DNA of 64,000 bases from Aromatoleum evansii (GTDB taxonomy: Bacteria > Pseudomonadota > Gammaproteobacteria > Burkholderiales > Rhodocyclaceae): assembly GCF_012910805.1 (NCBI RefSeq), contig NZ_WTVK01000004.1:62001-126000 (forward strand), in the 5' to 3' direction. Position 1 is the first letter of the stretch. Each line of letters opens with the position of its first letter. This document shows positions 15,839 through 61,879 of this stretch, piece after piece. The notes under the pieces were generated by a model, which worked only from the letters and a program-made list of their open reading frames with translations, had not been told where the DNA came from and made no database searches. A program made the position numbers and the translations under genes.

Positions 15839-17254
<1,416 letters not shown>

Positions 17255-42777: not shown

Positions 42778-42778
42778 G

Positions 42779-44870: not shown

Positions 44871-44886
44871 TGGCACAGCGGTTGCG
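44871..44886 (+). promoter_or_regulatory. Sigma-54 promoter of the phenol operon
   Basis: TGGCAC-AGCGG-TTGCG matches the -24/-12 consensus almost perfectly. Transcription should start near 44897, about 60 bp before the ppsA start codon. Confidence 0.9.
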
Positions 44887-46794: not shown

Positions 46795-46807
46795 AGAGGG
46801 AAACAGC

Positions 46808-47935
46808 ATGGGAAGCGCTCTGATGGCTGAAGAAGTGCGCCTCGCCCCCGGCATCGACAGCCGGGCGCCCAAGGTGTGCATGTTCGAGGACTGCAACAAG
46901 GACTCCGTGCCGCTTGTCGGCGGGAAGTGTTCGTCACTCGGCGAGCTGATCAACGCGGGTGTCCGGGTGCCACCGGGCTTCGCAGTGACGACGGCGGGCT
47001 ACGCGCAGTTCATGCACGAGGCCGGCATCCACGACGAGGTCAACGCCCTGCTGCAGGGGCTGGACCACGACGACATGGACCGCCTCGAAGAGGCTTCGCG
47101 CCGGATCCGCGAAATGATCGAGTCGCGGCCGATCTCGATCGAGCTGGAGGACCTGATCGCCGAGGCCTACCGCAAGCTGTCGGTGCGCTGCTACCTGCCG
47201 GCGGTGCCGGTGGCGGTGCGATCGAGCGCGACGGCCGAGGACCTGCCGGGCGCGAGCTTCGCCGGCCAGCAGGACACCTACCTGTGGATCCGCGGCATCG
47301 ACGAGGTCATCCACCACATTCGGCGCTGCTTCTCCAGCCTCTACACGGCGCGTGCCATCGCCTACCGCATCCGCATGGGTTTCCCGCACGAGCAGGTGGC
47401 GATCAGCGTGGGCGTGCAGAAGATGGCGAACGCCTACACCGCGGGGGTGATGTTCACGCTGCATCCCTCGACCGGCGACCGCTCGGTGATCGTGATCGAC
47501 TCGAACTTCGGCTTCGGCGAGTCGGTGGTGTCGGGTGAGGTGACGCCGGACAACTTCGTCGTCAACAAGGTCACGCTGGACATCATCGAGCGGACGATCT
47601 CGACCAAGGAGGTCTGCTACACGGCGGACCTCAAGCTGCAGCGCTCGGTCGCGATGGAGGTGCCGGCCGAGCGCCAGAACATCCAGTCGGTGCTCGACGA
47701 CGAAATCACCGAGCTCGCGTGGATGGCCAAGAAGATCGAGAAGCACTACGGCCGGCCGATGGACATCGAGTGGGCGATCGACAAGAACCTGCCCGCGGGC
47801 GGCAACGTTTTCATCCTGCAGGCGCGCCCCGAGACGATCTGGAGCAACAAGCAGAAGGCACCGGCGACGACCGGGGCGACGTCGGCGATGGATTACATCG
47901 TCTCGAACCTGCTCGTCGGCAAGCGCCTGTCCTGA
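46808..47935 (+). CDS. ppsB: Phenylphosphate synthase subunit B (PpsB)
   Basis: A 375-residue (about 40 kDa) subunit homologous to the N-terminal nucleotide-binding domain of PEP synthase. Typical blocks are VGGKCSSLGELINAGVRVPP, VAVRSSATAEDLPGASFAGQ and DIEWAIDKN...FILQARPET. It transfers pyrophosphate/phosphate from ATP to the His of PpsA. The start is ATG 46808 with a GAGGG site; an internal ATG at 46823 is less likely. Together PpsA and PpsB correspond to one split PEP synthase. Confidence 0.95.
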   Translation: MGSALMAEEVRLAPGIDSRAPKVCMFEDCNKDSVPLVGGKCSSLGELINAGVRVPPGFAVTTAGYAQFMHEAGIHDEVNALLQGLDHDDMDRLEEASRRIREMIESRPISIELEDLIAEAYRKLSVRCYLPAVPVAVRSSATAEDLPGASFAGQQDTYLWIRGIDEVIHHIRRCFSSLYTARAIAYRIRMGFPHEQVAISVGVQKMANAYTAGVMFTLHPSTGDRSVIVIDSNFGFGESVVSGEVTPDNFVVNKVTLDIIERTISTKEVCYTADLKLQRSVAMEVPAERQNIQSVLDDEITELAWMAKKIEKHYGRPMDIEWAIDKNLPAGGNVFILQARPETIWSNKQKAPATTGATSAMDYIVSNLLVGKRLS

Positions 47936-47948
47936 GGAGGAATGGATC

Positions 47949-48617
47949 GTGATCGTACGCAACTGGATGCAAGCCAATCCCGCGGTGCTCGGCAGCGACA
48001 CGCTGCTGTCGGAGGCGAAGCGGATCCTGTCCGAAACCAATTTGCATGCCCTGCCCGTCGTCGATGACGGACGGCTGCGCGGACTCGTCACCCGCGCCGG
48101 CTGCCTGCGCGCAGCTCACGCGGCCATCCGCAGCCAGAGCCCGGACGAGCTGAACTACTTCTCGAACCACGTGAAGGTGAAGGACATCATGGTGCGCAAC
48201 CCCGCGACCATCGATGCCAACGACACGATGGAGCGCTGTCTTCAGGTCGGCCAGCAGGCGGGCGTCGGCCAGCTGCCGGTGATGGATGACGGCCATGTGG
48301 TCGGGATGATCTCGGCGATCGAGATGTTCTCGCTCGCGGCGCATTTCCTCGGCGCGTGGGAGCGCAGGAGCGGCGTGACGCTCGCGCCGACGCGCATCGG
48401 CCCAGGAACGATCGGCCGCATCGCCGACATCGTCGAGGGCACGGGCGCCGAGGTACACGCGATCTACCCGATCAGCCTGGGGCCAAAGGGCGTCGCGAGT
48501 GGCGACCAGGAGCGCAAGGTCATCGTCCGCTTCCATCACGCCGACACCGCCGAGGTCACGCGCGCGCTCACGGCCGCCGGCTACGAAGTCATCGAGTCGG
48601 TGCAGGCAATGCACTGA
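47949..48617 (+). CDS. ppsC: Phenylphosphate synthase subunit C (PpsC), CBS-domain protein
   Basis: A 222-residue (about 24 kDa) protein with two CBS domains: residues 5-60, MQANPAVLGSDTLLSEAKR, and 78-135, IMVRNPATIDANDTMERC. A C-terminal ACT-like region follows. In Thauera aromatica the third subunit is not catalytic but stimulates phenol phosphorylation. CBS pairs bind adenine nucleotides, so energy sensing is plausible. GAGGAA precedes the GTG/ATG start region; the ATG at 47949 fits. It lies 13 bp after ppsB. Confidence 0.93.
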   Translation: MIVRNWMQANPAVLGSDTLLSEAKRILSETNLHALPVVDDGRLRGLVTRAGCLRAAHAAIRSQSPDELNYFSNHVKVKDIMVRNPATIDANDTMERCLQVGQQAGVGQLPVMDDGHVVGMISAIEMFSLAAHFLGAWERRSGVTLAPTRIGPGTIGRIADIVEGTGAEVHAIYPISLGPKGVASGDQERKVIVRFHHADTAEVTRALTAAGYEVIESVQAMH

Positions 48618-48664
48618 TTCCCATCACACAACAACCCCAACTTTCCAGCCAAGGAGACATCCGA

Positions 48665-50086
48665 ATGGACCTGAGGTACTTCATCAACCAGTGCGCCGAA
48701 GCTCATGAACTCAAGCGCGTGACGACCGAGGTCGACTGGAATCTGGAGCTTTCGCACGTCTCGAAGCTCACCGAAGAGAAGAAAGGCCCGGCACTGCTGT
48801 TCGAGAGCGTGAAGGGCTACGACACGCCGGTGTTCACCGGCGCCTTCGCGACGACCAAGCGGCTCGCGATCATGCTGGGCCTGCCGCACGACCTGACGCT
48901 GTGCCAGTCGGCGCAGCAGTGGATGAAGAAGACGATCACGTCCGAGGGCCTGATCAAGGCGAAGGAAGTGAAGGACGGGCCGGTGCTGGAAAACGTGCTG
49001 ACCGGCAACAAGGTCGATCTCAACATGTTCCCGGTGCCCAAGTTCTTCCCGCTCGACGGCGGGCGCTACATCGGGACGATGGTGTCGGTGGTGCTGCGTG
49101 ACCCGGAGACGGGCGAAGTGAACCTCGGCACCTACCGCATGCAGATGCTCGACGACAAGCGCTGCGGCGTGCAGATCCTGCCCGGCAAGCGCGGCGAGCG
49201 GATCATGAAGAAGTACGCCAAGATGGGCAAGAAGATGCCTGCGGCGGCGATCATCGGCTGCGATCCGCTGATCTTCATGGCCGGCACGCTGATGCACAAG
49301 GGCGCGTCCGACTACGACATCACTGGCACGGTGCGCGGCCAGCAGTCCGAGTTCCTGATGGCGCCGCTGACCGGACTGCCGGTGCCGGCGGGCGCGGAGA
49401 TCGTCCTCGAAGGAGAGATCGACCCGAACAATTTCCTGCCGGAAGGCCCGTTCGCCGAATACACGGGTTATTACACGGACGAGCTGCACAAGCCGATTCC
49501 GAAGCCGGTGCTGGAAGTGCAGCAGATCCTGCATCGCAACAACCCCATCCTGTGGGCGACCGGCCAGGGCCGTCCGGTGACCGACGTGCATATGCTGCTC
49601 GCCTTCACGCGCACGGCGACCTTGTGGACCGAGCTCGAGCAGATGCGCATCCCCGGCGTGCAGTCGGTGTGCGTGCTGCCGGAATCGGCGGGCCGCTTCT
49701 GGACGGTGGTGTCGGTGAAGCAGGCCTACCCGGGGCATTCGCGCCAGGTCGCCGATGCGGTGATCGGCAGCAACACCGGCAACTACGGCATGAAGGGCGT
49801 CATCACGGTCGACGAGGACATCCAGGCGGACGACCTGCAGCGGGTGTTCTGGGCGCTGTCCTGCCGCTACGACCCGATGCGCGGCACGGAGCTCATCAAG
49901 CGCGGCCGCTCGACGCCACTCGATCCGGCGCTCGACCCCGACTCCGACAAGCTCATGACGTCCCGCATCCTGATGGACGCCTGCATTCCGTATGAATGGA
50001 AGCAGAAGCCGGTCGAGGCGCGCATGGACGAGGAGACGCTCGCGAAGATCAAGGCGCGCTGGCACGAGTATGGAATCGGGATCTGA
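48665..50086 (+). CDS. ppcB: Phenylphosphate carboxylase beta subunit (PpcB), UbiD family
   Basis: A 473-residue (about 53 kDa) UbiD-fold subunit of phenylphosphate carboxylase, which makes 4-hydroxybenzoate from phenylphosphate and CO2 under strict anoxia. The flavin/metal-site motif N-x4-R is NLGTYR (N153, R158). The two acidic residues of the UbiD active site are in PEGPFAEYTGYY. AAGGAG lies upstream of ATG 48665. I assigned beta by its size relative to the second UbiD gene; the alpha/beta names could be swapped in some annotations. Confidence 0.92.
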   Translation: MDLRYFINQCAEAHELKRVTTEVDWNLELSHVSKLTEEKKGPALLFESVKGYDTPVFTGAFATTKRLAIMLGLPHDLTLCQSAQQWMKKTITSEGLIKAKEVKDGPVLENVLTGNKVDLNMFPVPKFFPLDGGRYIGTMVSVVLRDPETGEVNLGTYRMQMLDDKRCGVQILPGKRGERIMKKYAKMGKKMPAAAIIGCDPLIFMAGTLMHKGASDYDITGTVRGQQSEFLMAPLTGLPVPAGAEIVLEGEIDPNNFLPEGPFAEYTGYYTDELHKPIPKPVLEVQQILHRNNPILWATGQGRPVTDVHMLLAFTRTATLWTELEQMRIPGVQSVCVLPESAGRFWTVVSVKQAYPGHSRQVADAVIGSNTGNYGMKGVITVDEDIQADDLQRVFWALSCRYDPMRGTELIKRGRSTPLDPALDPDSDKLMTSRILMDACIPYEWKQKPVEARMDEETLAKIKARWHEYGIGI

Positions 50087-50101
50087 CAAGGAATCGAAGA
50101 C

Positions 50102-50611
50102 ATGGAAAAGGCCAAGAACATCAAGCTGGTGATCCTCGACGTCGATGGCGTCATGACGGACGGCCGCATCGTCATCAACGACGACGGCATCGAGTCGCGC
50201 AACTTCGACATCAAGGACGGCATGGGCGTAGTGGTGCTGCAGCTGTGCGGCGTCGAGGTCGCGATCATCACTTCGAAGAAGTCCGGCGCGGTGCGCCATC
50301 GCGCCGAGGAGCTGAAGATCAAGCGCTTCCACGAGGGCATCAAGAAGAAGACCGAGCCCTACGCGCAGATGCTCGAGGAGATGAACATCTCCGACGCCGA
50401 GGTGTGCTACGTCGGCGACGACCTGGTGGATCTGTCGATGATGAAGCGCGTCGGCTTGCCGGTTGCGGTCGGGGACGCGGTCGCGGACGTGAAGGAAGCC
50501 GCGGCCTACGTGACCACGGCGCGCGGCGGGCACGGCGCGGTGCGCGAGGTCGCCGAGCTGATCCTGAAGGCCCAGGGAAAGTGGGACGCAATGCTCTCGA
50601 AGATCCACTGA
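50102..50611 (+). CDS. ppcD: Phenylphosphate carboxylase delta subunit (PpcD), HAD phosphatase
   Basis: A 169-residue (about 18 kDa) HAD-superfamily protein of the KdsC-like, capless type. Motif I is LVILDVDGVMTDG with the nucleophile Asp, motif II is in AIITSKKSG, and motif IV is YVGDDLVDLSMM. The delta subunit is needed to carboxylate phenylphosphate but not for CO2/4-hydroxybenzoate exchange. It is thought to release phosphate and hand the phenolate to the core enzyme. It lies between the two UbiD-type genes. Confidence 0.94.
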   Translation: MEKAKNIKLVILDVDGVMTDGRIVINDDGIESRNFDIKDGMGVVVLQLCGVEVAIITSKKSGAVRHRAEELKIKRFHEGIKKKTEPYAQMLEEMNISDAEVCYVGDDLVDLSMMKRVGLPVAVGDAVADVKEAAAYVTTARGGHGAVREVAELILKAQGKWDAMLSKIH

Positions 50612-50656
50612 TTCACCACCGCAGCGAACGGCATATCCATCACCAAGGAGACAGAC

Positions 50657-52117
50657 GTGGGAAAGATTTCGGCACCCCGCAACAACCGCGAGTTCATCGA
50701 GGCGTGCGTCAAGTCCGGCGACGCGGTGCGCATCAAGCAGGAAGTGGATTGGGACAACGAGGCCGGCGCCATCGTGCGCCGCTGCTGCGAGCTCGGCGAA
50801 GCTGCGCCCTTCATGGAGAGCATCAAGGACTACCCGGGTTTCAGCTACTTCGGCGCCCCGCTCTCGACCTACCGCCGCATGGCGATCTCGTTGGGCATGG
50901 ATCCGAACTCGACGCTGCCGCAGATCGGCGCGGAGTACCTCAAGCGCACGAACAGCGAGCCGGTCGCACCAGTCGTCATCGACAAGCGCGACGCACCGTG
51001 CAAGGAGAACATCCTGCTCGGCGCCGACGCCGACCTGTGCAAACTGCCGGTGCCGCTGGTGCATGACGGCGACGGCGGGCGTTACGTCGGGACCTGGCAC
51101 GCGGTGATCACCAAGCACCCGGTGCGCGGCGACGTGAACTGGGGGATGTACCGCCAGATGATGTGGGACAGCCGCACGATGAGCGGCGCCGTGTTCCCCT
51201 TCTCGGACCTCGGCAAGGCACTCACCGAGTACTACCTGCCGCGCGGTGAAGGCTGCCCCTTCGCGACCGCAATCGGCCTGTCGCCCCTGGCGGCGATGGC
51301 CGCGTGCGCGCCCTCACCCATCCCCGAGCCGGAGCTCACCGGCATGCTCTCCGGCGAGCCGGTGCGTCTCGTGAAGTGCGAGACAAACGACCTCGAAGTC
51401 CCCGCCGATGCCGAGATCATCATCGAGGGCATGATCCTGCCCGACTACAAGGTCGAGGAAGGCCCGTTCGGCGAGTACACCGGCTACCGCACCAGCCCGC
51501 GCGACTTCCGCGTGACCTTCCGCGTCGATGCGATCACCTATCGCAACAACGCCACGATGACGATCTCGAACATGGGCGTGCCGCAGGACGAGGGGCAGTT
51601 GCTGCGCTCGTTCTCGCTCGGGCTGGAGCTGGAGAAGCTGCTGAAGAGCCAGGGGATTCCGGTGACCGGCGTGTATATGCACCCGCGCTCGACGCACCAC
51701 ATGATGATCGTCGGCGTGAAGCCGACCTACGCCGGCATCGCGATGCAGATCGCGCAGCTCGCGTTCGGCTCCAAGCTCGGGCCGTGGTTCCACATGGTGA
51801 TGGTGGTCGACGACCAGACCGACATCTTCAACTGGGACGAGGTCTATCACGCGTTCTGCACGCGCTGCAATCCGGAGCGCGGCATCCACGTCTTCAAGAA
51901 CACGACCGGCACGGCGCTGTACCCGCACGCCACTCCGCACGACCGCAAGTACTCGATCGGCTCGCAGGTGCTGTTCGACTGCCTGTGGCCGGTCGATTGG
52001 GACAAGACCAATGACGTGCCGACGCTCGTCAGCTTCAAGAACGTCTACCCCAAGGACATCCAGGAGAAGGTCGTCAACAACTGGGCCGATTACGGCTTCC
52101 GCGGCGCGAAGAAATAA
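50657..52117 (+). CDS. ppcA: Phenylphosphate carboxylase alpha subunit (PpcA), UbiD family
   Basis: A 486-residue (about 54 kDa) UbiD-fold subunit. The N-x4-R motif is NWGMYR (N161, R166) and the acidic motif is EEGPFGEYTGYR. It starts with GTG 50657, with AAGGAG 6-7 bp upstream. With PpcB and PpcC it forms the core that exchanges CO2 with 4-hydroxybenzoate. Both UbiD-type subunits of this cluster keep the residues expected for a prenylated-FMN enzyme, consistent with the ubiX gene downstream. Confidence 0.93.
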   Translation: MGKISAPRNNREFIEACVKSGDAVRIKQEVDWDNEAGAIVRRCCELGEAAPFMESIKDYPGFSYFGAPLSTYRRMAISLGMDPNSTLPQIGAEYLKRTNSEPVAPVVIDKRDAPCKENILLGADADLCKLPVPLVHDGDGGRYVGTWHAVITKHPVRGDVNWGMYRQMMWDSRTMSGAVFPFSDLGKALTEYYLPRGEGCPFATAIGLSPLAAMAACAPSPIPEPELTGMLSGEPVRLVKCETNDLEVPADAEIIIEGMILPDYKVEEGPFGEYTGYRTSPRDFRVTFRVDAITYRNNATMTISNMGVPQDEGQLLRSFSLGLELEKLLKSQGIPVTGVYMHPRSTHHMMIVGVKPTYAGIAMQIAQLAFGSKLGPWFHMVMVVDDQTDIFNWDEVYHAFCTRCNPERGIHVFKNTTGTALYPHATPHDRKYSIGSQVLFDCLWPVDWDKTNDVPTLVSFKNVYPKDIQEKVVNNWADYGFRGAKK

Positions 52118-52126
52118 GGAGCGGTC

Positions 52127-52384
52127 ATGGCAAACAAGTGGGAAGTGTTCGTGATGGACCTCGGGGAACTGGCCGAGGGCAAGGAGCTGGAACTGACGAT
52201 CCGCACGCTCAACGACGGGCTGCACAAGTACACCTACCAGCGCGCGAAGGTGGAGGTGTCGAGCACGCTCGACAAGTTCGCCGACAGCCTGCAGGTGCGG
52301 TTGGGGCGCGGGCAGTTGAGTGACCGGAAGTTCTCGATCAGGGTGATCGAGCGCGTGGAGCGCTTGCCGGCGCGGTATCGGTAA
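52127..52384 (+). CDS. ppcC: Phenylphosphate carboxylase gamma subunit (PpcC)
   Basis: An 85-residue (about 10 kDa) small subunit with no characterised homologue outside such carboxylases. It begins MANKWEVFVMDLGELAEG and is rich in charged residues, with a probable beta-rich N-terminal half and a basic C-terminus. In Thauera aromatica the gamma subunit is required with alpha and beta for the exchange reaction. GGAG lies 6-7 bp before the ATG, which is 9 bp after ppcA. Confidence 0.92.
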   Translation: MANKWEVFVMDLGELAEGKELELTIRTLNDGLHKYTYQRAKVEVSSTLDKFADSLQVRLGRGQLSDRKFSIRVIERVERLPARYR

Positions 52385-52452
52385 GCAGTGCGACCCGGGC
52401 AGGCCGCGTGCCTGCCCGGCCCGATTCCATCATCGAAGGGAATAGCGAAACA

Positions 52453-53799
52453 ATGGCCTACCCTGACCTGCGCAGTTTCCTGGCCGACCTTGGCGACGAC
52501 GTGCTGCACGTGCGTGACGAGTTCGACCCGAGGTTCGAGATCGCGGCGGTGCTGCGCAGCCTCCCGGCGGACGCGCCCGCGACGATCTTCGAGAACGTGC
52601 GCGGCTACGCTGGTGCGCGCGTCGCCGGAAACCTGTTTGGCGCCCGTCGTCGCGTCGCCCGCGCCTTCGGCACGACCGAGGACCGGCTCGCACAGGCCTG
52701 GCTCGACAACAAGCAGCGCGCGATCGCGCCCGTCGTCGCAAGGAACGCGCCGGTCCAGGAAGTCGTCCATGAATCGCGCGACGAGTTGCTCTCGCTGCTG
52801 CCGATCCTGACCCATCACGAAAAGGACGGCGCCCCCTTCATCACGACCGGCGTCGTGCTGTGTACCGACCCGGTCACCGGACGTCGCGGCATGGGCATCC
52901 ACCGCATGATGGTGAAGGGCGCCAACCGCCTCGGCGTGCTGCTCGCGAACCCGCCGCTGTCGCAGTTCCACGCCAATGCCGAAGCCAAGGGCGAAGCGCT
53001 CGATGTCGCCATCGCGCTCGGGCTGGAGCCCGCGACACTGCTGGCGTCGGTCGTGCGCAGCGGCCCGCAGGGCCCGGACAAGATGGCGGTAGCGGGCGGT
53101 CTGCGCGGCGAGCCGGTGGAACTCGCGCGCGCGCTGACCGTTAACGTCGAAGTCCCCGCGCGCGCCGAGATCGTCATCGAAGGCCGCATCCTGCCGGGCG
53201 TGCGCGAGCCGGAAGGCCCGTTCGGCGAGAACACGGGCTACTACTTCTCCAACGTCAGCCCGGTGGTCGAAGTCACCGCCGTCACGCACCGCGACAACTT
53301 CATCTACCCCGGCCTGTGCCCGTGGTCGGGCGACGTCGACACCCTGCTCTCGCTCGCCGCCGGCACCGAACTGCTGGGCCAGCTGCAGACCATGGTCGCG
53401 GGCGTCGTCGATCTGGACCTGACCGGTGGCACGGCCGGTTTCTCGGCCGCGATCGCCGTGAGGAACTGCCCGCGCAACGAGGTGCGGCGCCTGGTCATGC
53501 TCGCGCTGAACCTCGACAAGCGCCTCAAGACCGTCACCGTCGTCGATGACGATGTGAATATCCGCGACCCGCGCGAAGTCGCGTGGGCGATGGCGACGCG
53601 CTACCTGCCCGAACGCGACACCGTGATCATCGGCGGCGCCGAGGGATACGTCATCGACCCCTCTTCGGCCGGCAGCAGCTTCGGCTCGAAGGCCGGCTTC
53701 GTCGCGACGCGCGGCGCCGGCCCCGAATTCGACCGCGTCACCCTGCCCGCCGCCGCACTGGCGAAGGCGCAGGCCCTGCTCGCCACGCTGCACAAATAA
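52453..53799 (+). CDS. Third UbiD-family (de)carboxylase-like protein
   Basis: A 448-residue UbiD homologue of unknown substrate, equivalent in position to an uncharacterised UbiD-like gene of the Thauera phenol cluster. The acidic active-site region is intact (PEGPFGENTGYY). The N-x4-R motif reads GMGIHR (G146, R151), so the conserved Asn is replaced by Gly. The start is ATG 52453 (MAYPDLRSF), with GAAGGGAATAGCG upstream. It could be an additional (de)carboxylase, an assembly partner or an enzyme for a substituted phenol. It is 13 bp from ubiX and surely in the same transcript. Confidence 0.85.
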   Translation: MAYPDLRSFLADLGDDVLHVRDEFDPRFEIAAVLRSLPADAPATIFENVRGYAGARVAGNLFGARRRVARAFGTTEDRLAQAWLDNKQRAIAPVVARNAPVQEVVHESRDELLSLLPILTHHEKDGAPFITTGVVLCTDPVTGRRGMGIHRMMVKGANRLGVLLANPPLSQFHANAEAKGEALDVAIALGLEPATLLASVVRSGPQGPDKMAVAGGLRGEPVELARALTVNVEVPARAEIVIEGRILPGVREPEGPFGENTGYYFSNVSPVVEVTAVTHRDNFIYPGLCPWSGDVDTLLSLAAGTELLGQLQTMVAGVVDLDLTGGTAGFSAAIAVRNCPRNEVRRLVMLALNLDKRLKTVTVVDDDVNIRDPREVAWAMATRYLPERDTVIIGGAEGYVIDPSSAGSSFGSKAGFVATRGAGPEFDRVTLPAAALAKAQALLATLHK

Positions 53800-53812
53800 C
53801 GGAGACAGCACC

Positions 53813-54397
53813 ATGAGAATCGTCGTCGGCATTTCCGGAGCAAGCGGTGCGATCTACGGCATCCGCATCCTCGAAGCGCTGAAGCAGATCGGCGTCGAGA
53901 CCGACCTCGTGATGTCGGACTCGGCCAAGCGCACGATCGTCTACGAGACCGACTACTCGATCAACGACGTCAAGCGTCTCGCCTCCTGCGTGCATGACAA
54001 CAACGACGTCGGCGCCTCAATTGCGAGCGGCTCGTTCAAGCATGCAGGGATGATCATCGCGCCCTGCTCGATCAAAACGCTCTCCGCGGTCGCCAACTGC
54101 TTCAACACCAACCTGCTGATTCGCGCCGCCGACGTCACGCTGAAGGAGCGGCGCAAGCTCGTGCTGATGCTGCGCGAGACGCCGCTGCACCTCGGCCACC
54201 TGCGCCTGATGACGCAGGCCACGGAGACCGGCGCGGTGCTGGTGCCGCCGCTGCCGGCCTTCTACCACCGGCCCAAGACCATCGACGACATCATCAACCA
54301 GTCGGTGACCAAGGTGCTCGACCAGTTCGACCTGGACGTCGATCTCTTCGGGCGCTGGACCGGCAATGAAGAGCGGGAGCTGGCGAAATCGCGGTGA
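53813..54397 (+). CDS. ubiX: Flavin prenyltransferase UbiX
   Basis: A 194-residue flavoprotein that joins a dimethylallyl group to FMN, making the prenylated FMN cofactor of UbiD-type enzymes. The flavin/phosphate-binding N-terminus is VVGISGASGAIYG; LVMSDSAKRT and GMIIAPCSIKTLSAVANCF follow, and LVLMLRETPLHLGHLRLM is near the C-terminus. GGAG precedes the ATG. A dedicated copy in the phenol operon fits the three UbiD-type proteins encoded just upstream. Confidence 0.94.
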   Translation: MRIVVGISGASGAIYGIRILEALKQIGVETDLVMSDSAKRTIVYETDYSINDVKRLASCVHDNNDVGASIASGSFKHAGMIIAPCSIKTLSAVANCFNTNLLIRAADVTLKERRKLVLMLRETPLHLGHLRLMTQATETGAVLVPPLPAFYHRPKTIDDIINQSVTKVLDQFDLDVDLFGRWTGNEERELAKSR

Positions 54398-54414
54398 TCC
54401 GGCGACGTCTCCTT

Positions 54415-54471
54415 GTGGGAGCGGCTTCAGCCGCGAAGCAACGCCGATTCGCGGCTGAGGCCGCTCCCACA
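54415..54471. repeat. REP-like palindromic repeat, family 1 (copy 4)
   Basis: GTGGGAGCGGCTTCAGCCGC (54415-54434) is mirrored by GATTCGCGGCTGAGGCCGCT through CCCACAG (54447-54471). The spacer is only about 10 bp. It sits between ubiX and the riboflavin-kinase-like gene and could form a strong hairpin inside the operon. Confidence 0.92.
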
Positions 54472-54515
54472 GAACCGCCCCGACGAACCGCACCCACGCA
54501 ATAAGGATTCGCCAC

Positions 54516-54953
54516 ATGATGACCACCGCCACCATCCTCGAACTCGAAGGCGAAGTCGCCCCCGGCCTCGGCGAAGGCTCGCGCTTCACCGCGATCGACT
54601 GGGTCGTTGCCGAAATCCGTCGCAAGCTCGGCTTCATCCCCTGGCCCGGCACCTTCAACCTGCGCATGCGCGGCGCAGCCTGGGACTGGGCACGCGCGCG
54701 ACTGCGTTCCGCCGCCGGCATCGCGATCACGCCGCAGGATGGCTTCTGCGCGGCGAAATGCTTCGGCGTGAGCATTGCCGGCCATCTCACGGGTGCGGTC
54801 GTGTTCCCGGAGATGCCCGGCTACCCCGAAGACAAGTTCGAGATCGTCGCGCCGGTGCCGATCCGCGAAACGCTCGGACTGCAGGACGGCGACCTCGTCA
54901 ACCTGCGCCTCGACCTCGCCCTGTCCGCCCGCGACGACGCGACTGCGGTCTGA
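54516..54953 (+). CDS. CTP-dependent riboflavin kinase-like protein (DUF120/RibK)
   Basis: A 145-residue protein matching the archaeal DUF120 riboflavin kinase, which uses CTP rather than ATP to make FMN. Landmarks are EGEVAPGLGEGSRFTAIDW at the N-terminus, LGFIPWPGTFNLRMRG, and the C-terminal KFEIVAPVPIRETLGLQDGD. The length equals the archaeal enzyme core. Bacteria normally use the ATP-dependent RibF, so this gene is probably additional. Its place behind ubiX suggests a role in FMN or prenyl-FMN supply. ATG 54516 or 54519, with AAGGA upstream. Activity and nucleotide choice are inferred. Confidence 0.8.
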   Translation: MMTTATILELEGEVAPGLGEGSRFTAIDWVVAEIRRKLGFIPWPGTFNLRMRGAAWDWARARLRSAAGIAITPQDGFCAAKCFGVSIAGHLTGAVVFPEMPGYPEDKFEIVAPVPIRETLGLQDGDLVNLRLDLALSARDDATAV

Positions 54954-54972
54954 CCCATCCAAGGAGACCAAG

Positions 54973-55521
54973 ATGGCCCCCAAGTTCTGCCCGCAATGCA
55001 GCACGCCGCTGGTCCTCGCGAAAATCCACAACCGCGAGCGCGAGACCTGTCCTGCCTGCGGCGAGACCTTCTTCCACAAGCCGGCGCCGGTCGTGTTGGC
55101 CGTGATCGAGCACGCGGACAAGCTGGTGCTGATCCGCCGCAACCTCGACCCGCTGGGCGGCTACTGGGCACCGCCCGGCGGCTACGTCGAGCAGGGCGAA
55201 TCGCTCGAGGAGGCCGTCGTGCGCGAAGCGCGCGAGGAGACCGGGCTGGAGGTGGCCGTCGACGGACTGATCGGCGTGTATTCGCAGACCGGCGTACGCG
55301 CCGTGATCCTCGCGTATCGCGCGCATTCGGTCGCGGGCGAGCCGGTCGCGGGGGACGATGCCGGCGCGATCGCGCTGATTGCGCCGGGCCAGTTGCCGAT
55401 CCAGCCGGCGCCCGAGGGCGCGCCGCTGCTCGACCGCTGGTTCCACGACGTCATCCAGGAAGTCACCGCACCATGGAAATGGGGGCGCCACACGAGCGCC
55501 AGAACAATGATGAGGAGATAA
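54973..55521 (+). CDS. Nudix hydrolase with N-terminal zinc ribbon
   Basis: A 182-residue protein. An N-terminal zinc ribbon (CPQC near residue 6 and CPAC near residue 26) is followed by a Nudix domain with a complete box: G at GGYVEQGE, then AVVREAREETGLEV. Related proteins hydrolyse nucleoside diphosphate derivatives such as ADP-ribose, NADH or CoA species. AAGGAG precedes ATG 54973. It follows the DUF120 gene by 19 bp. A Nudix gene is also part of the Thauera phenol cluster. The substrate is unknown; removing a flavin or isoprenoid phosphate is conceivable but unsupported. Confidence 0.88.
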   Translation: MAPKFCPQCSTPLVLAKIHNRERETCPACGETFFHKPAPVVLAVIEHADKLVLIRRNLDPLGGYWAPPGGYVEQGESLEEAVVREAREETGLEVAVDGLIGVYSQTGVRAVILAYRAHSVAGEPVAGDDAGAIALIAPGQLPIQPAPEGAPLLDRWFHDVIQEVTAPWKWGRHTSARTMMRR

Positions 55522-55523
55522 CG

Positions 55524-55556
55524 ATGACCGCAGCGACTTCCCGCCCGTCCGGCTGA
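55524..55556 (+). other. Ten-codon frame with a strong ribosome site
   Basis: GAGGAG lies 6 bp before ATG and a frame MTAATSRPSG-stop, starting 2 bp after the Nudix stop codon. The following 130 bp hold no gene. It may be the stump of a deleted gene, a leader peptide, or chance. The remainder of 55557-55686 shows nothing else. Confidence 0.4.
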
Positions 55557-55686
55557 ACGCCCGGCGCCCGCCCGACGCGGGTTCCCCCGACAACTCCGCA
55601 GCATCCGCCCATACGGCAATGCCCCCTTCCGAACCCGGACGGCATCGCCGCGGGACGGTTCGTCCAGAATTTCGAGGAAGACAGTC

Positions 55687-56985
55687 ATGGCGTATTTCGA
55701 TCAGACCACCGAAACCCTGCCCCGCGAACAGCTCGCCGCCCTGCAACTGGAAAAGCTCCAGGCGATGATGGCCGAGTTGTGGGGCAAGAACCGCTTCTAC
55801 AGCAACAAGTGGAAGGCCGCCGGCATCGAGCCGCGCGACATCCGCTCGCTCGACGACCTCGCGCGCCTGCCGCTGACGACGAAGTCCGAGCTGATGGAAG
55901 ACCAGGCGGCGAACGGCCCCTTCGGCACCAACCTCACTTATCCGATCGAGCAGTACACGCGCCTGCACCAGACCTCCGGCACAACCGGCGTACCGCTGAA
56001 GGTGCTGGACACGCAGGACTCCTGGGACTGGTGGGCGAAGTGCTGGGCGCACGTGCTCGCCGGCTCGGGGGTGGATGCGAGCGACCGCGTCTTCCTCGCC
56101 TTCGCGTTCGGGCCCTTCATCGGTTTCTGGGCGGCGCTGGAAGGCGCGCGCAAGCTCGGCGCAGTGATGATCCCTGGCGGCGGACGCGACTCGCTGCAGC
56201 GCCTGGAACTGATGCGCGAGACGGGCGCGACGGTGCTGTGCTGCACACCGACCTACGCCCTGCGGCTGGCCGAAGTGGCGCGCGAACACGGCTTCGACAT
56301 GGGCTCGATCAAGATGAAGTCCACCGTGCATGCGGGCGAACCGGGCGCGAACATCCCGGCGACCAAGCAGCGCATCGAATCCTCGTGGTCGGCGAAATGC
56401 TTCGACCATGCGGGCGCCTCCGAGATCGGCGCGCATTCCTTCGAATGCGAGCACCAGCCCGGCGGCACGCACTTGATCGAGTCCGAGTTCATCGCCGAGG
56501 TCATCGACCCCAAGACCGGCGAAGCCGTGAAGCCTGGCGAGCGCGGCGAACTGGTGGTCACGAACCTCGGCCGCTGGGGCTTCCCGCTGATCCGCTACCG
56601 CACCGGCGATCTCGTCGAAGTTAATCTCGACCCCTGTTCCTGCGGCCGAACCTTCCTGCGCTTCCAGGGCGGCATCCTCGGCCGCGCGGATGACATGGTC
56701 ACCGTGCGCGGGGTGAACGTCTTCCCGGCCGGCGTCGAGAACATCATCCGCAAGTTCGTCGAGGTCGACGAGTTCCGCATCACCGTCAGCAAGGTCAAGC
56801 ACATGGACGAGATGGATATCGAGGTCGAGCTGTGCGAAGGGGCCGACCCTGCGGTCGTGCATTCGATCGCCGAGCGCCTCGACGCGGTACTCGCCTTCCG
56901 CCCGCGCGTGCATAACGTCGGACGCAACATCCTTCCGCGCTTCGACATGAAGGCCAAGCGTTTCCACGTCAATCGCGCGGCCTGA
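55687..56985 (+). CDS. PaaK-like aryl/acyl-CoA ligase (AMP-forming)
   Basis: A 432-residue adenylate-forming enzyme of the phenylacetate-CoA ligase family. The phosphate-binding loop is TSGTTGVPLKV (about residue 100). GASEIGAHSFEC lies in the aryl-binding region and YRTGDLVEV carries the conserved Asp. The C-terminal hinge and small domain begin near GRADDMVTVRGVNVFP. The length matches PaaK rather than the larger benzoate-CoA ligase type. In this cluster the likely role is activating an aromatic acid, possibly 4-hydroxybenzoate made by the carboxylase, but the substrate is inferred. GAGGAAG precedes the ATG. Confidence 0.87.
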   Translation: MAYFDQTTETLPREQLAALQLEKLQAMMAELWGKNRFYSNKWKAAGIEPRDIRSLDDLARLPLTTKSELMEDQAANGPFGTNLTYPIEQYTRLHQTSGTTGVPLKVLDTQDSWDWWAKCWAHVLAGSGVDASDRVFLAFAFGPFIGFWAALEGARKLGAVMIPGGGRDSLQRLELMRETGATVLCCTPTYALRLAEVAREHGFDMGSIKMKSTVHAGEPGANIPATKQRIESSWSAKCFDHAGASEIGAHSFECEHQPGGTHLIESEFIAEVIDPKTGEAVKPGERGELVVTNLGRWGFPLIRYRTGDLVEVNLDPCSCGRTFLRFQGGILGRADDMVTVRGVNVFPAGVENIIRKFVEVDEFRITVSKVKHMDEMDIEVELCEGADPAVVHSIAERLDAVLAFRPRVHNVGRNILPRFDMKAKRFHVNRAA

Positions 56986-57093
56986 GCCAGCTTCCGCACC
57001 CCGGTATCGGCAATGGCCCGGCCGAGGCCAGGGGCGGCAACGCCCCGAATCGTGCCAATCAAGGCATCGCAAACAAGAAATCAAGGAGGAGGC

Positions 57094-58023
57094 ATGAGAC
57101 TCAAGCAGATCTGCGTGGCGTTGGCCCTGTCCGGGCTGGTTTGCGGCGGCGCGCTCGCGAAGGAAGGGGGCGACCAGTATCCGCACGGAAGCGAGAACTG
57201 GGTCGCGGGCGCATTGCCGCCACCGGGAAACTATTTCCTCAACTATTTCGGGTACTACCATGCCGACAGCCTGCGCGACGACGACGGCGACAAGGTACCC
57301 GGGACCGGGGTGACCGCCTGGTTCGATGCGATGCGCGTCGTCAAGGTCACGAACACGAAGATCCTCGGCGGAGACTGGGCGGTACAGGCCATCCTGCCCG
57401 TCGTGCAGCAGAAACTGACCCTCGGCGACAGCAAGACCGTCACCGGCATCGGCGACATGCTGTTCTCGCCGCTCGTGATCGGCTGGCACGCCGGCAACCT
57501 GCACTGGGTCTTCGCGCTGGATTTCTTCGCGCCGACAGGGGAATACAAGTCGGGGCAGCCGATCAAGAGCATCGGCACCAACTACTGGAGCGTGGAACCG
57601 GTCCTTGCGGTGACCTGGATCTCCGATTCGGGCTGGGAGCTGTCGGGCAAGTTCATGTACAACATGAAGACGAAGAACAAGGACTTCCGCCCTGCCCCCG
57701 GCGCGCCGAAGATGGATTACGAGTCGGGCGACGAGTTTCGCGTCGATTACCTCGCGGGCAAGCGCTTCGGCCCGTGGGGCGTCGGCCTTTCCGGCTACTA
57801 CCTGAAGCAGACGACCAACGACAAGCTCGAAGGCGAAACGATCTCATCGGCGCTCGGACCGTGGTCCTCAGGGCGCAAGGGCGAGGTGTTCGCGATCGGG
57901 CCGAGCGTCAGCTACACGACCAAGGGCGGCACGATGTTCATCGGCCAGTGGCAGCAGGAATCCGGGGCGGAAAACCGCTTCCAGGGCGACAAGGCGTGGT
58001 TCCGGCTGATCATGCCGTTCTAG
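57094..58023 (+). CDS. Outer-membrane channel of the SphA/phenol-meta-pathway family
   Basis: A 309-residue protein with a signal peptide (VALALSGLVCGGALAK, cleavage near residue 23), alternating beta-strand pattern and a C-terminal Phe (RLIMPF), as in outer-membrane beta-barrels. It resembles the transporter family often found next to aromatic-degradation genes (phenol_MetA_deg/SphA). A role in phenol or aromatic-acid uptake is plausible. AAGGAGGAG lies 3-4 bp before ATG 57094, a very strong ribosome site. It is the last rightward gene of the phenol region. Confidence 0.85.
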   Translation: MRLKQICVALALSGLVCGGALAKEGGDQYPHGSENWVAGALPPPGNYFLNYFGYYHADSLRDDDGDKVPGTGVTAWFDAMRVVKVTNTKILGGDWAVQAILPVVQQKLTLGDSKTVTGIGDMLFSPLVIGWHAGNLHWVFALDFFAPTGEYKSGQPIKSIGTNYWSVEPVLAVTWISDSGWELSGKFMYNMKTKNKDFRPAPGAPKMDYESGDEFRVDYLAGKRFGPWGVGLSGYYLKQTTNDKLEGETISSALGPWSSGRKGEVFAIGPSVSYTTKGGTMFIGQWQQESGAENRFQGDKAWFRLIMPF

Positions 58024-58032
58024 CACCCGGTT

Positions 58033-58063
58033 GCGCCGCTGCCCCCATCAGGGGTGGCGGCGC
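58033..58063. terminator. Hairpin between the outer-membrane gene and the EAL gene
   Basis: A 13-bp imperfect stem (58033-58045 with 58051-58063, two G-U type pairs) spans the stop codon of the leftward EAL gene. No T-run follows, so termination is only possible. Confidence 0.35.
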
Positions 58064-59652
58064 CCCTGGCCGAGTTGCAGTTCGAACTCTTCCAGCGGCA
58101 CGGGGCGGCTGAAGTGGTAGCCCTGGTAGTTGCTGCAGCCGTGCACCGCGAGGAAGTTTCGCTGCTCGGCGGTCTCGACGCCTTCGGCGATGACTTCGAG
58201 GCCGAGGCTCTGGCCGAGTGCGATGATGGTGCGCACGATCGCGGCGTCGTTGGCGTTCTCGGTCACGTCGCGCACGAAGGACTGGTCGATCTTGAGCTGG
58301 TCGAGCGGCAGGCGGCGCAGGCAGGACAGCGACGAGAAGCCGGTGCCGAAGTCGTCCAGCGAGAACTGGATGCCCATCGCCTTGAGCCTTGCCATCTTGT
58401 CGACGACCTGGTCGATGTTCTCGACGACCATGCTCTCCGTGAGCTCGAGCTTGAGGTTCGCCGGATCCGCCCCGGTCTGCTCGACGACATCCAGCACCTC
58501 GCGGACGAAATCATCCTGCCGGAACTGCCGCGCGCTCACATTGACAGACAGCCGCAGATGACGCGTCGCCGGCACGGCCTCCCACGCTTTCAGCTGCCGG
58601 CAGGCGGTTTCCAGCACCCAGCGGCCAATCGGAAGGATCATCCCGGTTTCCTCCGCGAGCGGGATGAAGTCGCACGGCGGGATCATGCCGCGCTCGGGGT
58701 GCAGCCAGCGGATCAGGACTTCGGCGCCCTGGATCGTGCCGGAACAGTCGACCTGCATCTGGTAGTAAAGCCGCAGCTGATCCGGGAGCGCCTTGCTCAG
58801 CCAGCCTTCCAGGCGCACCCGCTCCTCCAGCGCCGCCTGCATCGCGACATCGAAGAAATGGATGCCGCCGCGCCCACGGCTGCGCGCCTCGAACATCGAC
58901 GCATCGGCCTGCTTGAGCAGCTCGTCGACGGTGCCTTCCGCGCCCGAGAACATGCTGATGCCGACGCTGACCGAACCCAGGACCTCCTGTCCGTCGACAT
59001 CGAGCGGCTGCCGGACCACCGCCTGGATGCGCTCGGCAATCTCGCGCGCGGCGACCGCGGCGGCGTCCCGCTCCGGACTCAGCCCGTTGGCGACGACGAC
59101 GAATTCATCGCTGCCGACACGTGCCACGGTGTCCTCGCGGTGGACGCTCGCGGCAATCCGGCGCGCGATCTCGACCAGCATGCGGTCACCGACCTCGTGT
59201 CCGCGCGTGTCGTTGAGCGCCCGGAAACCGTCGAGATCGATGAACAGCACCGCGCCACGGGTATCGCTGCGGCGCCCGCCCAGCAGCGACTGTCCGAGGC
59301 GGTCGAACAGCAGGCGTCGATTCGGCAGGCTGGTCAGCGAATCGTAGAAGGACAGGTTATGCACCTGCTCCTCGGCGTGCCGCCGCTCCGCCTCCGACGC
59401 GAGCTCGCGCCGCAGACTCTGGTTCAGCCTGCCGACAAGGCGAATCAACAGGCCGTACAGCAGCACTGCCGTGATGGCGACGAAGACCCAGCCCTTGGCC
59501 TGGCTGGCCTTCACGATGAGGTCGGGGTCGCGGAAAAGGAAACCCAGCGCTTCGTCGGAAAGCAGGATCCACAGCGCAGCAAAGGCCGCGTACGCCAGGA
59601 CGACCCTGAGTACGCCGGCTTTCGCGTCGAGAATGCTGTCCTGATCTCCCAT
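58048..59652 (-). CDS. Membrane protein with degenerate GGDEF and EAL domains
   Basis: A 534-residue inner-membrane protein. There are two helices (about residues 15-37 and 52-75), a GGDEF-like domain (about 100-265) and an EAL domain (about 280-530). The cyclase signature is VGSDEF instead of GGDEF, and the RxxD site is HRED, so cyclase activity is doubtful. The phosphodiesterase domain keeps EVLIRW (EAL variant), ELTES, DDFGTGFSSL, KIDQSF and AEGVET, so c-di-GMP hydrolysis is likely. The start is ATG 59652; TTG 59655 would add one residue. Confidence 0.9.
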   Translation of the reverse strand: MGDQDSILDAKAGVLRVVLAYAAFAALWILLSDEALGFLFRDPDLIVKASQAKGWVFVAITAVLLYGLLIRLVGRLNQSLRRELASEAERRHAEEQVHNLSFYDSLTSLPNRRLLFDRLGQSLLGGRRSDTRGAVLFIDLDGFRALNDTRGHEVGDRMLVEIARRIAASVHREDTVARVGSDEFVVVANGLSPERDAAAVAAREIAERIQAVVRQPLDVDGQEVLGSVSVGISMFSGAEGTVDELLKQADASMFEARSRGRGGIHFFDVAMQAALEERVRLEGWLSKALPDQLRLYYQMQVDCSGTIQGAEVLIRWLHPERGMIPPCDFIPLAEETGMILPIGRWVLETACRQLKAWEAVPATRHLRLSVNVSARQFRQDDFVREVLDVVEQTGADPANLKLELTESMVVENIDQVVDKMARLKAMGIQFSLDDFGTGFSSLSCLRRLPLDQLKIDQSFVRDVTENANDAAIVRTIIALGQSLGLEVIAEGVETAEQRNFLAVHGCSNYQGYHFSRPVPLEEFELQLGQGRRHP

Positions 59653-59785
59653 CAACGACCTTCCCCGAAACGATTTGCCCCGCGACGTCGCGGCAGCCGG
59701 AATGAGCCGTATTAGATCGCGAAACGGCGGTATGCCGGCAGGAAAAATTCCCGCCGGGCAAGCCGTATTGCCGTTATCGGGTGCC

Positions 59786-60004
59786 TCAGAACGGCAGGCG
59801 GCGCTTCGGAGGCTGGGCCGGCTTCCTTGCAGGCTCCGGCTTCACGGCCTTCACGGGTTTGCGCGGGAGGTTCATCTCGTCGCGGGCGAAACGCACCTTG
59901 CCTTCGAGCACGCAGCCACGCATGCCGGGCTCGCACACCGCGCCCTGTACGCGCTGACACACGCCGTCGAGGTCGTGCGGACAACTCCATGCGCCGCTGC
60001 TCAT
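59786..60004 (-). CDS. Small conserved Cys-rich hypothetical protein
   Basis: A 72-residue protein beginning MSSGAWSCPHDLDGVCQRVQ. Four Cys lie in about 30 residues (SCPHD, GVCQ, AVCEPG, RGCVLEG), suggesting metal binding, followed by a basic, Pro/Lys-rich tail. I chose ATG 60004 because GGGAG lies 9 bp upstream; ATG 60067 would extend it by 21 residues. Similar short proteins occur in other betaproteobacteria as far as I recall, with no known function. It is divergent from nudC. Confidence 0.65.
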   Translation of the reverse strand: MSSGAWSCPHDLDGVCQRVQGAVCEPGMRGCVLEGKVRFARDEMNLPRKPVKAVKPEPARKPAQPPKRRLPF

Positions 60005-60159
60005 GTCGAAACGCTCCCGCTTGTCGCTCAAAGGCCAACCATAGCCCAGGATGGACAGATTCCCCATGAGGAATGTCAATTCAGGGGACCTGCGGTTGCG
60101 CCGCCGCGGCATGCCGCGCATCATGACCGCAACATCCAACCACCCGACTGCGTGCGCCC

Positions 60160-60990
60160 ATGTTCACTCCCGGACACGTCTCCCCCGCCCCGCTCCGCGA
60201 CGACGACCTGTGTTTCGTATTCCGCAAGAATGCCCTGCTCGTGCTCAACAGCGAGGGCGAGACCCGGGTGCCCACGCGCAGGGAGCCGGGTGGGCTGGAT
60301 CCGTCCGGTCCGCAGCACTACCTCGGACGCCTCGGCGATCGGCACTGCTACGCGGCCGCCGTCGGGCCCGAAGCGCCCGCTCCGGAGGGCATGGAATGGC
60401 ACGACCTGCGCTCCCTGTTCGGGCGGCTCGACGAGACGTCGTTCGGGGTGGCGGGCCGCGCGGTCCAGATCGTGCAATGGGACCTGACGCATCGCTACTG
60501 CGGCCGCTGCGGCACGCCGACGGATCCGCACCCGGACGAACGTTCGCGGGTATGCCCCGGCTGCGGCATGGTCCACTACCCGCGCCTCGCCCCGGCGGTG
60601 ATGGCTCTGGTGCGACGGGGCGACGAACTGCTCCTCGCGCGCTCGCCACACTTTCCCGAAGGCATGTTCAGCGCGCTCGCGGGATTCGTCGAGCCGGGCG
60701 AGTCGCTGGAGCAGACCCTCGCGCGCGAGGTACGCGAGGAAGTCGGGATCGAGATCACCAACGTGCGCTATTTCGGCAGCCAGCCGTGGCCCTTCCCGCA
60801 TTCCCTGATGATCGGCTTCGTCGCGGATTACGCGGGCGGCAAGCTCGTCCTGCAACCCGAGGAGATCGAGGCCGCCGACTGGTTCACGATCGACCGGCTG
60901 CCGCGCCTGCCGCACCGCATCAGCATCGCGCGGCGACTGATCGATGCGACGGTGCGCGAAATCGCAGCGAAGCGTGGATCCGACGCTTGA
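60160..60990 (+). CDS. nudC: NAD(H) pyrophosphatase / NAD-cap hydrolase NudC
   Basis: A 276-residue Nudix enzyme that hydrolyses NADH to NMNH and AMP and can remove NAD caps from RNA. The zinc ribbon is CGRCG...CPGCG (about residues 113-135). The Nudix box is GFVEPGES followed by AREVREEVGIE. The family-specific SQPWPFPHSLM motif follows it. These three together distinguish NudC from other Nudix proteins. Its stop lies 128 bp before ahpC. Confidence 0.95.
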   Translation: MFTPGHVSPAPLRDDDLCFVFRKNALLVLNSEGETRVPTRREPGGLDPSGPQHYLGRLGDRHCYAAAVGPEAPAPEGMEWHDLRSLFGRLDETSFGVAGRAVQIVQWDLTHRYCGRCGTPTDPHPDERSRVCPGCGMVHYPRLAPAVMALVRRGDELLLARSPHFPEGMFSALAGFVEPGESLEQTLAREVREEVGIEITNVRYFGSQPWPFPHSLMIGFVADYAGGKLVLQPEEIEAADWFTIDRLPRLPHRISIARRLIDATVREIAAKRGSDA

Positions 60991-61118
60991 TCGCAAGTGC
61001 CTATCGTATTCATTTTTTAGTTCAATTGGAGCTATCGCACCCCGGTCGGTAAAGTGACACCCATCGAGCAGGACACACCGCTCGGTCCCCTTACCCCACT
61101 ACGACAATGGAGTGCGAC

Positions 61119-61682
61119 ATGTCCCAGATCAACCAGCAAGTCAAGCCGTTCAAAGCCACCGCCTACCACAACGGCAAGTTCATCGAAGTCAGCGACGAAT
61201 CGCTGAAGGGCAAATGGTCGGTGGTGTTCTTCTACCCGGCCGACTTCACCTTCGTGTGCCCGACCGAACTGGGCGACCTCGCCGACAACTACGCCGAGTT
61301 CCAGAAGCTGGGCGTCGAGATCTACAGTGTTTCGACCGACACCCACTTCACGCACAAGGCATGGCACGACAGCTCCGAGACCATCGGCAAGATCCAGTAT
61401 CCGATGATCGGCGACCCGACCGGCACCATCTCGCGCAACTTCGACGTGATGATCGAGGAAGCCGGCCTGGCCGACCGCGGCACCTTCGTGATCGACCCGG
61501 AAGGCAGGATCCAGATCGTCGAGATCAACGCCGGCGGCATCGGCCGCGACGCCTCGGAGCTGCTGCGCAAGGTCAAGGCCGCGCAGTACGTCGCCAGCCA
61601 CCCGGGTGAAGTCTGCCCGGCGAAGTGGAAGGAAGGCGACGCGACGCTGGCGCCCTCGCTGGACCTCGTCGGCAAGATCTAA
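61119..61682 (+). CDS. ahpC: Alkyl hydroperoxide reductase C (peroxiredoxin)
   Basis: A 187-residue typical 2-Cys peroxiredoxin reducing H2O2 and organic peroxides. The peroxidatic Cys is in [10 protein letters not shown] (about residue 47) and the resolving Cys in GEVCPAKW near the C-terminus. The start is ATG 61119, with GGAG 6 bp upstream; ATG 61107 would add four residues. The AT-rich promoter at 60999-61036 contains CTATCG at 61001 and 61032. It is followed by ahpF after a 197-bp gap with a palindromic repeat. Confidence 0.96.
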
Positions 61683-61696
61683 GCCGATCCGTCACC

Positions 61697-61795: not shown

Positions 61796-61879
61796 AAACC
61801 GTTGCCCATCCGGCACTAGCGGGCGGGCGCCACGAGCGCCCCCCCTGAATTCCCCCTGCATTTCACGGACGATCCCGCC

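Follow-up and report, generated by a model that had tools for sequence, protein, structure and literature searches.

A DUF120 protein of the riboflavin kinase family beside ubiX in the phenol operon of Aromatoleum evansii and its relatives: a candidate operon-specific source of flavin mononucleotide

The operon for anaerobic phenol degradation in Aromatoleum evansii (the phenol operon) lies within a 64,000-nucleotide stretch of contig NZ_WTVK01000004.1 (positions 62,001 to 126,000, forward strand; hereafter the window) and carries, as the next gene after that of the flavin prenyltransferase UbiX, a gene for a DUF120 protein, a family that includes cytidine triphosphate (CTP)-dependent riboflavin kinases. 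The gene families concerned are known, and their arrangement is specific and well conserved. The reading that we prefer, with a probability of roughly 55%, is that the DUF120 protein is a second, phenol-operon-specific riboflavin kinase that gives flavin mononucleotide (FMN) to UbiX for the prenylated FMN (prFMN) of phenylphosphate carboxylase (Ppc). This reading is drawn from gene identity, synteny, co-occurrence, conserved residues of metal- and nucleotide-binding type, and the presence of the bifunctional riboflavin kinase RibF.

The DUF120 protein matched the Pfam profile PF01982 with 103.8 bits (cut-off 25 bits) over profile positions 1-120 of 121, and matched chains of the archaeal riboflavin kinase MJ0056 with E values of 3.5e-12 (2oyn) and 5e-12 (2p3m), which bears out the placement in the riboflavin kinase family made by an earlier reading of the window (the first-pass annotation). 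For comparison of individual residues, 47 operon DUF120 proteins were aligned with six archaeal rows, made up of stretches from two solved sequences and four proteins encoded on haloarchaeal plasmids. Gly17, Thr46, Asn48, Glu109, and Arg117, which correspond to G14, T43, N45, E107, and R115 of MJ0056, were identical in all 47 operon proteins and all six archaeal rows, and the other glycines of the N-terminal motif, Gly19 and Gly21, were kept in 46 and 43 of the 47 operon proteins, respectively. T43 and N45 of MJ0056 are presumably metal-site residues, and T99 and E107 are taken here to contact FMN; of the latter pair, the operon proteins have the Glu (47/47) and lack the Thr (0/47). In a tree of DUF120 proteins, five archaeal kinases fell on one side of a branch (support 100/99); the operon proteins were not resolved as one group, and proteins fused to a HAD domain lay apart on long branches. 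No relatives of the protein were found in a scan of viral contigs. Judged by its sequence, the DUF120 protein is a PF01982 family member on a divergent branch, with a putative identity as RibK.

Of the 48 genomes with an operon-type DUF120 gene, 45 were read (all but G693, G764, and G807), yielding 47 copies. In 45 of these copies, ubiX immediately precedes DUF120 in the same orientation, the exceptions being G020, in which ubiX lies behind the ligase gene, and the second cluster of G006, in which ubiX was not found. Candidate starts of DUF120 fell between -10 and +5 bp from the ubiX stop in 27/47 copies, and in the annotated plasmid of Azoarcus sp. KH32C, the two genes overlap by 4 bp. The first-pass annotation had pointed to a neighborhood search for DUF120 beside ubiX in other bacteria, and this adjacency is what was found within the host's family. 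A profile scan of 36 clusters, chosen for having DUF120 and not counting the window itself, found the third UbiD gene missing in two clusters and ubiX out of place in two. Because of this choice, the retention of DUF120 is measured only by its presence in 47 of the 48 genomes with PpcC, the gamma subunit of the carboxylase. As a separate observation, G006 (L053) has two extra partial phenol clusters, at 14119-19999 and 4224-8500, one of which consists of ppcB-ppcA-ppcC-DUF120 and a ligase gene, with ppcD, the third UbiD gene, and ubiX not found.

When 395 genomes of the host's family were searched with profiles for DUF120 and PpcC, matches were found in 53 and 48 genomes, respectively, and both in 47 (Fisher p = 4e-53, although shared ancestry keeps the genomes from being independent); counted by genus, DUF120 was present in all seven sampled genera that have PpcC. 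The sole PpcC genome without DUF120 was G702, where the contig breaks off 44 bp downstream of PpcC. DUF120 matches without PpcC occurred in six genomes (G010, G715, G022, G500, G547, and G609). G715, a genome that is 77% complete, has the order UbiD-UbiX-DUF120-Nudix-PaaK. The G010 match (21.4 bits, 29 profile positions) was rejected as a real copy; in the surrounding 16.5 kb, searched with 13 operon proteins, the DUF120 fragment itself was the sole match. A match in G194 (28.9 bits, whole protein) is surrounded by open frames which, by reading, do not belong to the phenol operon. Across a phylum-wide sample, PF01982 was matched in 2/398 genomes, namely this genome, in which it is matched once in all, and a weak match. 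DUF120 is no chance neighbor of the ubiX and ppc genes.

RibF-family proteins were found in 27/27 genomes tested, so that DUF120 would be a second, specialized kinase. RibF also adenylates FMN to flavin adenine dinucleotide (FAD). In the proposed scheme, the DUF120 kinase would convert riboflavin to FMN while the operon is on, in a Mg-dependent reaction with CTP or another nucleoside triphosphate as donor. The FMN, after reduction, would be prenylated by the adjoining UbiX with dimethylallyl diphosphate (DMAPP) to give prFMNH2, and PpcA, PpcB, and the third UbiD protein would then receive the prFMN. That all three would need the cofactor is plausible, since each has kept the EGPF(G/A)E segment, which has a catalytic role. 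A second kinase with this single activity would escape the FMN adenylation of RibF as well as its inhibition by FMN, an inhibition described, in the accessible part of one paper, for the kinase module of a Corynebacterium FAD synthetase (PMC5544777). The DUF120 protein would be expected to be enzymatically active with a preference for CTP, to deliver FMN to UbiX, and to benefit maturation of the carboxylase. Of the dedicated FMN kinase for UbiX that had been suggested, the kinase family and the adjacency to ubiX hold; on a branch this divergent, riboflavin is a presumed substrate.

Several results weigh against a riboflavin kinase serving UbiX. The NCBIfam cut-offs for riboflavin kinases were missed, with 87.7 of 279 bits for NF010762/PRK14165 and 60.5 of 168 bits for NF040694/ribK_Meth. 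At the position of MJ0056 T99, five of the six archaeal rows have Thr and the sixth has Asp, but Thr occurs in no operon row (0/47). DUF120 also diverges faster than its neighbors: at 19 loci from other genera, its identity to the window protein was 41-61%, and the same comparison gave 85-96% for PpcA (18 loci) and 80-92% for UbiX (58% in G020). An AlphaFold2 model built with six close sequences reached a mean predicted local distance difference test score of 35.5 and was discarded. The second G006 copy stands beside ppcC with ubiX not found, and Asp replaces its Gly19. PpcC was not seen outside the host's family, the single occurrence in the phylum sample (1/398) being this genome. Finally, a UbiX/UbiD pair elsewhere in the same genome (C319) has no DUF120 beside it, which argues for a link to phenylphosphate carboxylase and not to prFMN in general. 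The first-pass annotation is supported in part, and the link that is supported is the specific one to the carboxylase, seen in 7/7 sampled genera with PpcC.

A possible though not probable alternative is that the DUF120 protein has moved off free riboflavin to a modified flavin (prFMNH2, prenylated riboflavin, or reduced flavin), which it would bind or phosphorylate as a carrier, a repair kinase, or a Ppc maturation factor. The archaeal Thr is absent throughout the 47 operon proteins, all of which carry Cys78 and Cys82 (C-x3-C), Tyr103, and Pro104, with Lys107 in 46; together with the rapid divergence, the missing Thr and the fixed C-x3-C would allow a role as a carrier or an action on a modified flavin. 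Also consistent with this alternative are the tie of DUF120 to PpcC and not to every UbiX/UbiD locus, and the G006 copy that adjoins ppcC without ubiX. Accessory proteins for prFMN have precedents, in that the available portions of the respective papers describe LpdD as binding prFMNH2 (PMC10865409) and PhdC as maturing prFMN (PMC13040415). The DUF120 family, however, differs from both of these as far as they are described there, and a mere carrier would not need residues of metal- and nucleotide-binding type, yet these are kept in 47/47 operon proteins. It may be, and we suggest it only tentatively, that the DUF120 protein is a prFMN accessory enzyme of a new kind, derived from a riboflavin kinase by loss of the Thr and fixation of C-x3-C and Y-P-x-x-K. 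Such a protein would phosphorylate, retain, or repair a flavin in prenylated or reduced form and pass it to the phenylphosphate carboxylase subunits, whose maturation would depend on the protein.

The first-pass annotation included the Nudix protein encoded behind DUF120 in a possible supply module, and it is unlikely that this protein turns DMAPP into dimethylallyl monophosphate (DMAP) for UbiX, or FAD into FMN, so that kinase and Nudix protein together form such a module. The Nudix box and the zinc-ribbon cysteines of the window protein are intact (PF00293 passed; the PF14803 zinc ribbon reached 25.0 bits against a cut-off of 25.6, with the Cys pairs CPQC and CPAC visible), the gene adjoins DUF120 in 32/36 clusters, and a plant Nudix protein, AtNUDX23, is an FAD pyrophosphatase according to the accessible text of PMC9678776. 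All NCBIfam equivalog scores of the operon protein were nevertheless far below cut-off. Three of the 36 clusters (those of G026 and G524 and the second one of G006) yielded no such gene, and that of G667 has lost its Nudix box to an internal deletion that keeps the reading frame, with no NUDIX domain found by Pfam. The protein is thus absent or without its box in 4/36 clusters, and a reading in which the supply module needs it is not supported.

The prenyl donor of UbiX bears on the same question. In the available part of PMC6541611, the DMAP-specific Pseudomonas UbiX (PaUbiX) has Phe181, the DMAPP-specific Aspergillus UbiX (AnUbiX) has Gln203, and an enzyme using both donors has His164, with the caveat that donor choice does not depend on this position alone. 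By alignment, the window UbiX has Gln163 at this position, and Gln was also present in 36/36 other operon loci searched (the KH32C replicon counted twice). Two other UbiX proteins of this genome have His (C319) and Phe (C221); the former adjoins the UbiD-family gene in the pair without DUF120 (G000:C319:10474-12095). The operon UbiX therefore looks DMAPP-type, and since it carries the Gln of AnUbiX, there is no obvious need for a step that makes DMAP. A role of the Nudix protein as DMAP maker was set aside because of this residue together with the loss of the Nudix gene in some clusters. The Nudix protein is most likely auxiliary, perhaps hydrolyzing flavin or nucleotide pyrophosphates, and not essential. 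A second zinc-ribbon Nudix gene, whose product is 33% identical to the first, lies at 60487-60849 of the window, and in several relatives, a similar Nudix gene follows the operon at a distance of a few kb.

That DUF120 is a neutral passenger, acquired and kept by linkage in the operon of one family with no role in growth on phenol, is quite improbable. Its fast divergence and the loss of Gly19 in the second G006 copy are in keeping with such an origin, as are the ratios of nonsynonymous to synonymous substitution (dN/dS) in two comparisons, 0.53 against an eleventh same-genus relative and 0.49 against another genus. The remaining 10 of the 12 comparisons, all with same-genus relatives, gave 0.15-0.29 (the PpcA pair L049 in the dN/dS table was disregarded, a wrong paralogue having been matched). 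These sequence comparisons indicate that DUF120 is under purifying selection, weaker than that on the neighboring genes. Its retention in 47/48 PpcC genomes of seven genera and the invariance of its kinase-type residues also argue against a passenger. Very improbable is a DUF120 alcohol kinase that phosphorylates prenol to DMAP, the other substrate for UbiX; a kinase-family protein beside a prenyltransferase would suggest it, but the solved relatives of DUF120 are riboflavin kinases and the operon UbiX looks DMAPP-type.

The features of the operon are collected in Table 1. It is an Aromatoleum-type phenol operon, with Aromatoleum strains and an Azoarcus as the closest named relatives found. 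All four phenylphosphate carboxylase subunits (alpha, beta, gamma, and delta) passed curated NCBIfam equivalog cut-offs, and UbiX was well placed by TIGR00421 (248.3 versus 108.9 bits) and PRK06029 (262.5 versus 188 bits). The third UbiD protein passed no NCBIfam equivalog cut-off; its best solved relatives are 6h6x/6h6v. The frames for the third UbiD, UbiX, DUF120, and Nudix proteins are all on the plus strand and free of internal stops, with purine-rich stretches visible by eye before their starts, and these clean frames and the Pfam/NCBIfam matches confirm the genes and coordinates that had been read behind the carboxylase genes. Their description as being in close order is accurate for the gaps of 68 (ppcC-ubiD), 13 (ubiD-ubiX), and 19 bp (DUF120-Nudix) and slightly generous for the 118 bp between ubiX and DUF120, which hold a hairpin resembling a repetitive extragenic palindromic (REP) element. 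REP-like inverted repeats of the GTGGGAGCGGCTT...AAGCCGCTCCCAC type are also present at about 9149-9222, 25131, and 28975-29048. No RNA family, the FMN riboswitch included, scored above its gathering score in 42000-62000. Further open reading frames are said to follow ubiX in the Thauera operon of Breinig et al. 2000. TGGC-N7-TTGC was matched twice in the window against 2.95 matches expected by chance, so that the site before ppsA is supported by its position only; a sigma-54 consensus is reported for the pps-ppc cluster of strain EbN1 in the accessible part of PMC10715001.

Table 1. Features of the phenol operon in the window, with DUF120-HAD fusion genes from other genomes (locus handle given)
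Feature	Position	Strand	Evidence or context
PNPOx protein gene beside phenol regulator gene	42316-42783	-	44.8 bits
Sigma-54-type activator gene, divergent	42779-44509	-	PheR-like by reading and position
Sigma-54-type -24/-12 promoter-like site, before ppsA	44871..44885	+	TGGC-N7-TTGC match
ppcB, phenylphosphate carboxylase beta, UbiD family	48665..50086	+	TIGR02724 1099.6 bits
ppcD, phenylphosphate carboxylase delta, HAD	50102..50611	+	TIGR02726 372.3 bits
ppcA, phenylphosphate carboxylase alpha, UbiD family	50657..52117	+	TIGR02723 1155.4 bits
ppcC, phenylphosphate carboxylase gamma	52127..52384	+	TIGR02725 142.2 bits; PF09662 171.8 bits
Third UbiD-family protein, 448 aa	52453..53799	+	PF01977 211 bits; TIGR00148 subfamily cut-off passed
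ubiX, flavin prenyltransferase, 194 aa	53813..54397	+	PRK06029 262.5 bits; TIGR00421 248.3 bits
REP-like inverted repeat (hairpin) between ubiX and DUF120 gene	54415..54470		Sequence
DUF120/CTP-dependent riboflavin kinase family protein, 145 aa	54516..54953	+	PF01982 103.8 bits
Nudix hydrolase, N-terminal zinc-ribbon cysteines, 182 aa	54973..55521	+	PF00293 63.7 bits; Nudix box GGYVEQGESLEEAVVREAREETGL
PaaK-like AMP-binding CoA ligase, frequent downstream neighbor	55687..56985	+	PF14535, PF00501; synteny
DUF120-HAD fusion, host's family	L064 9053-10177	-	Same-strand run with molybdenum hydroxylase genes
DUF120-HAD fusion, Natrinema	L120 7995-8918		Near MoeA- and MobA-like genes

Two further kinds of protein were encountered around DUF120. 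In G022, G500, G547, and G609, all of one genus, a DUF120 of the Thr-less type forms the front part of a protein of 347-358 residues, and the haloarchaeon Natrinema gelatinilyticum likewise has a longer protein that begins with a Thr-less DUF120; Pfam showed the fusion to a HAD phosphatase for G022 and Natrinema. A pairing of kinase and phosphatase fits flavin metabolism, since the plant enzyme AtFMN/FHy unites riboflavin kinase and FMN hydrolase in one protein (PMC9678776, accessible part). The neighbors in G022 and Natrinema, however, are molybdenum-enzyme genes and not ubiX, which speaks against a flavin reading of the fusions. A small gene of PNPOx-like type, which we take to encode a flavin split-barrel protein, lies between the Nudix and ligase genes in 17/36 clusters (e.g. 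L065 8785-9243 and L060 10889-11341); two of these genes gave PF01243 scores of 26.9 and 25.9 bits, just below the cut-off of 28.1. At this place the window has no such gene; its own PNPOx gene is a different one that adjoins the regulator gene, an arrangement shared with KH32C and G001 (L050). Because the prFMN maturase PhdC is of flavin-reductase type in the available text of PMC13040415, the PNPOx-like proteins are candidates for a maturation role, and they may handle flavin or prFMN. The weight given to each of the readings above is unaffected by them.

Compared with known systems, the DUF120 protein shares with archaeal RibK (MJ0056; 2p3m, 2vbs, 2vbt, 2vbu, 2vbv, and 2oyn) the PF01982 domain over its whole length, the glycine-rich N-terminal motif, G-T-x-N, and the Glu and Arg towards the C terminus. 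It differs in being a bacterial protein whose gene adjoins ubiX in a phenol operon, in genomes already equipped with RibF, and in lacking T99, having (near-)invariant C-x3-C and Y-P-x-x-K, and scoring below the NCBIfam ribK cut-offs. With the Thermoplasma-type kinases of RbkR type (3cta and 5trd), it has the kinase domain in common (PRK14165 87.7 bits; 3cta E 6e-10), but it lacks their helix-turn-helix domain and stays far under the 279-bit cut-off. The proposed conversion of riboflavin to FMN would be common to RibF (PF01687) of the same genomes, which belongs to another Pfam family, is encoded elsewhere in the genome, and makes FAD as well. Like the role proposed for DUF120, LpdD and PhdC are extra proteins that help UbiX/UbiD systems; they are, in the accessible parts of their papers, a prFMNH2-binding chaperone and a flavin-reductase-type prFMN maturase, respectively, and by Pfam match DUF120 is neither. 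The phenylphosphate carboxylase operons of Aromatoleum, Azoarcus, and related bacteria have the same pps-ppc gene order. In Azoarcus sp. KH32C, the proteins are annotated as "DUF120 domain-containing protein" and "NUDIX hydrolase" with no role given, and neither that record nor the accessible portions of the literature assign one to the operon DUF120 or Nudix protein. Among the matches listed from open-licence literature, in its accessible portions, none links DUF120 or a riboflavin kinase to UbiX or prFMN, and no open-licence paper was found that treats phenylphosphate carboxylase, UbiX, and a riboflavin kinase together.

If the DUF120 protein is a riboflavin kinase that feeds UbiX, a pathway-specific FMN kinase would exist beside the general RibF, and archaeal-type enzymology would be at work in a bacterium. 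UbiD-family carboxylases are able to put CO2 onto aromatic rings, and for some of them, the available part of the LpdD paper (PMC10865409) argues that UbiX alone is insufficient for active enzyme. DUF120, kept in 47/48 phenylphosphate carboxylase genomes of the family, would be a small and concrete candidate for such a missing factor.

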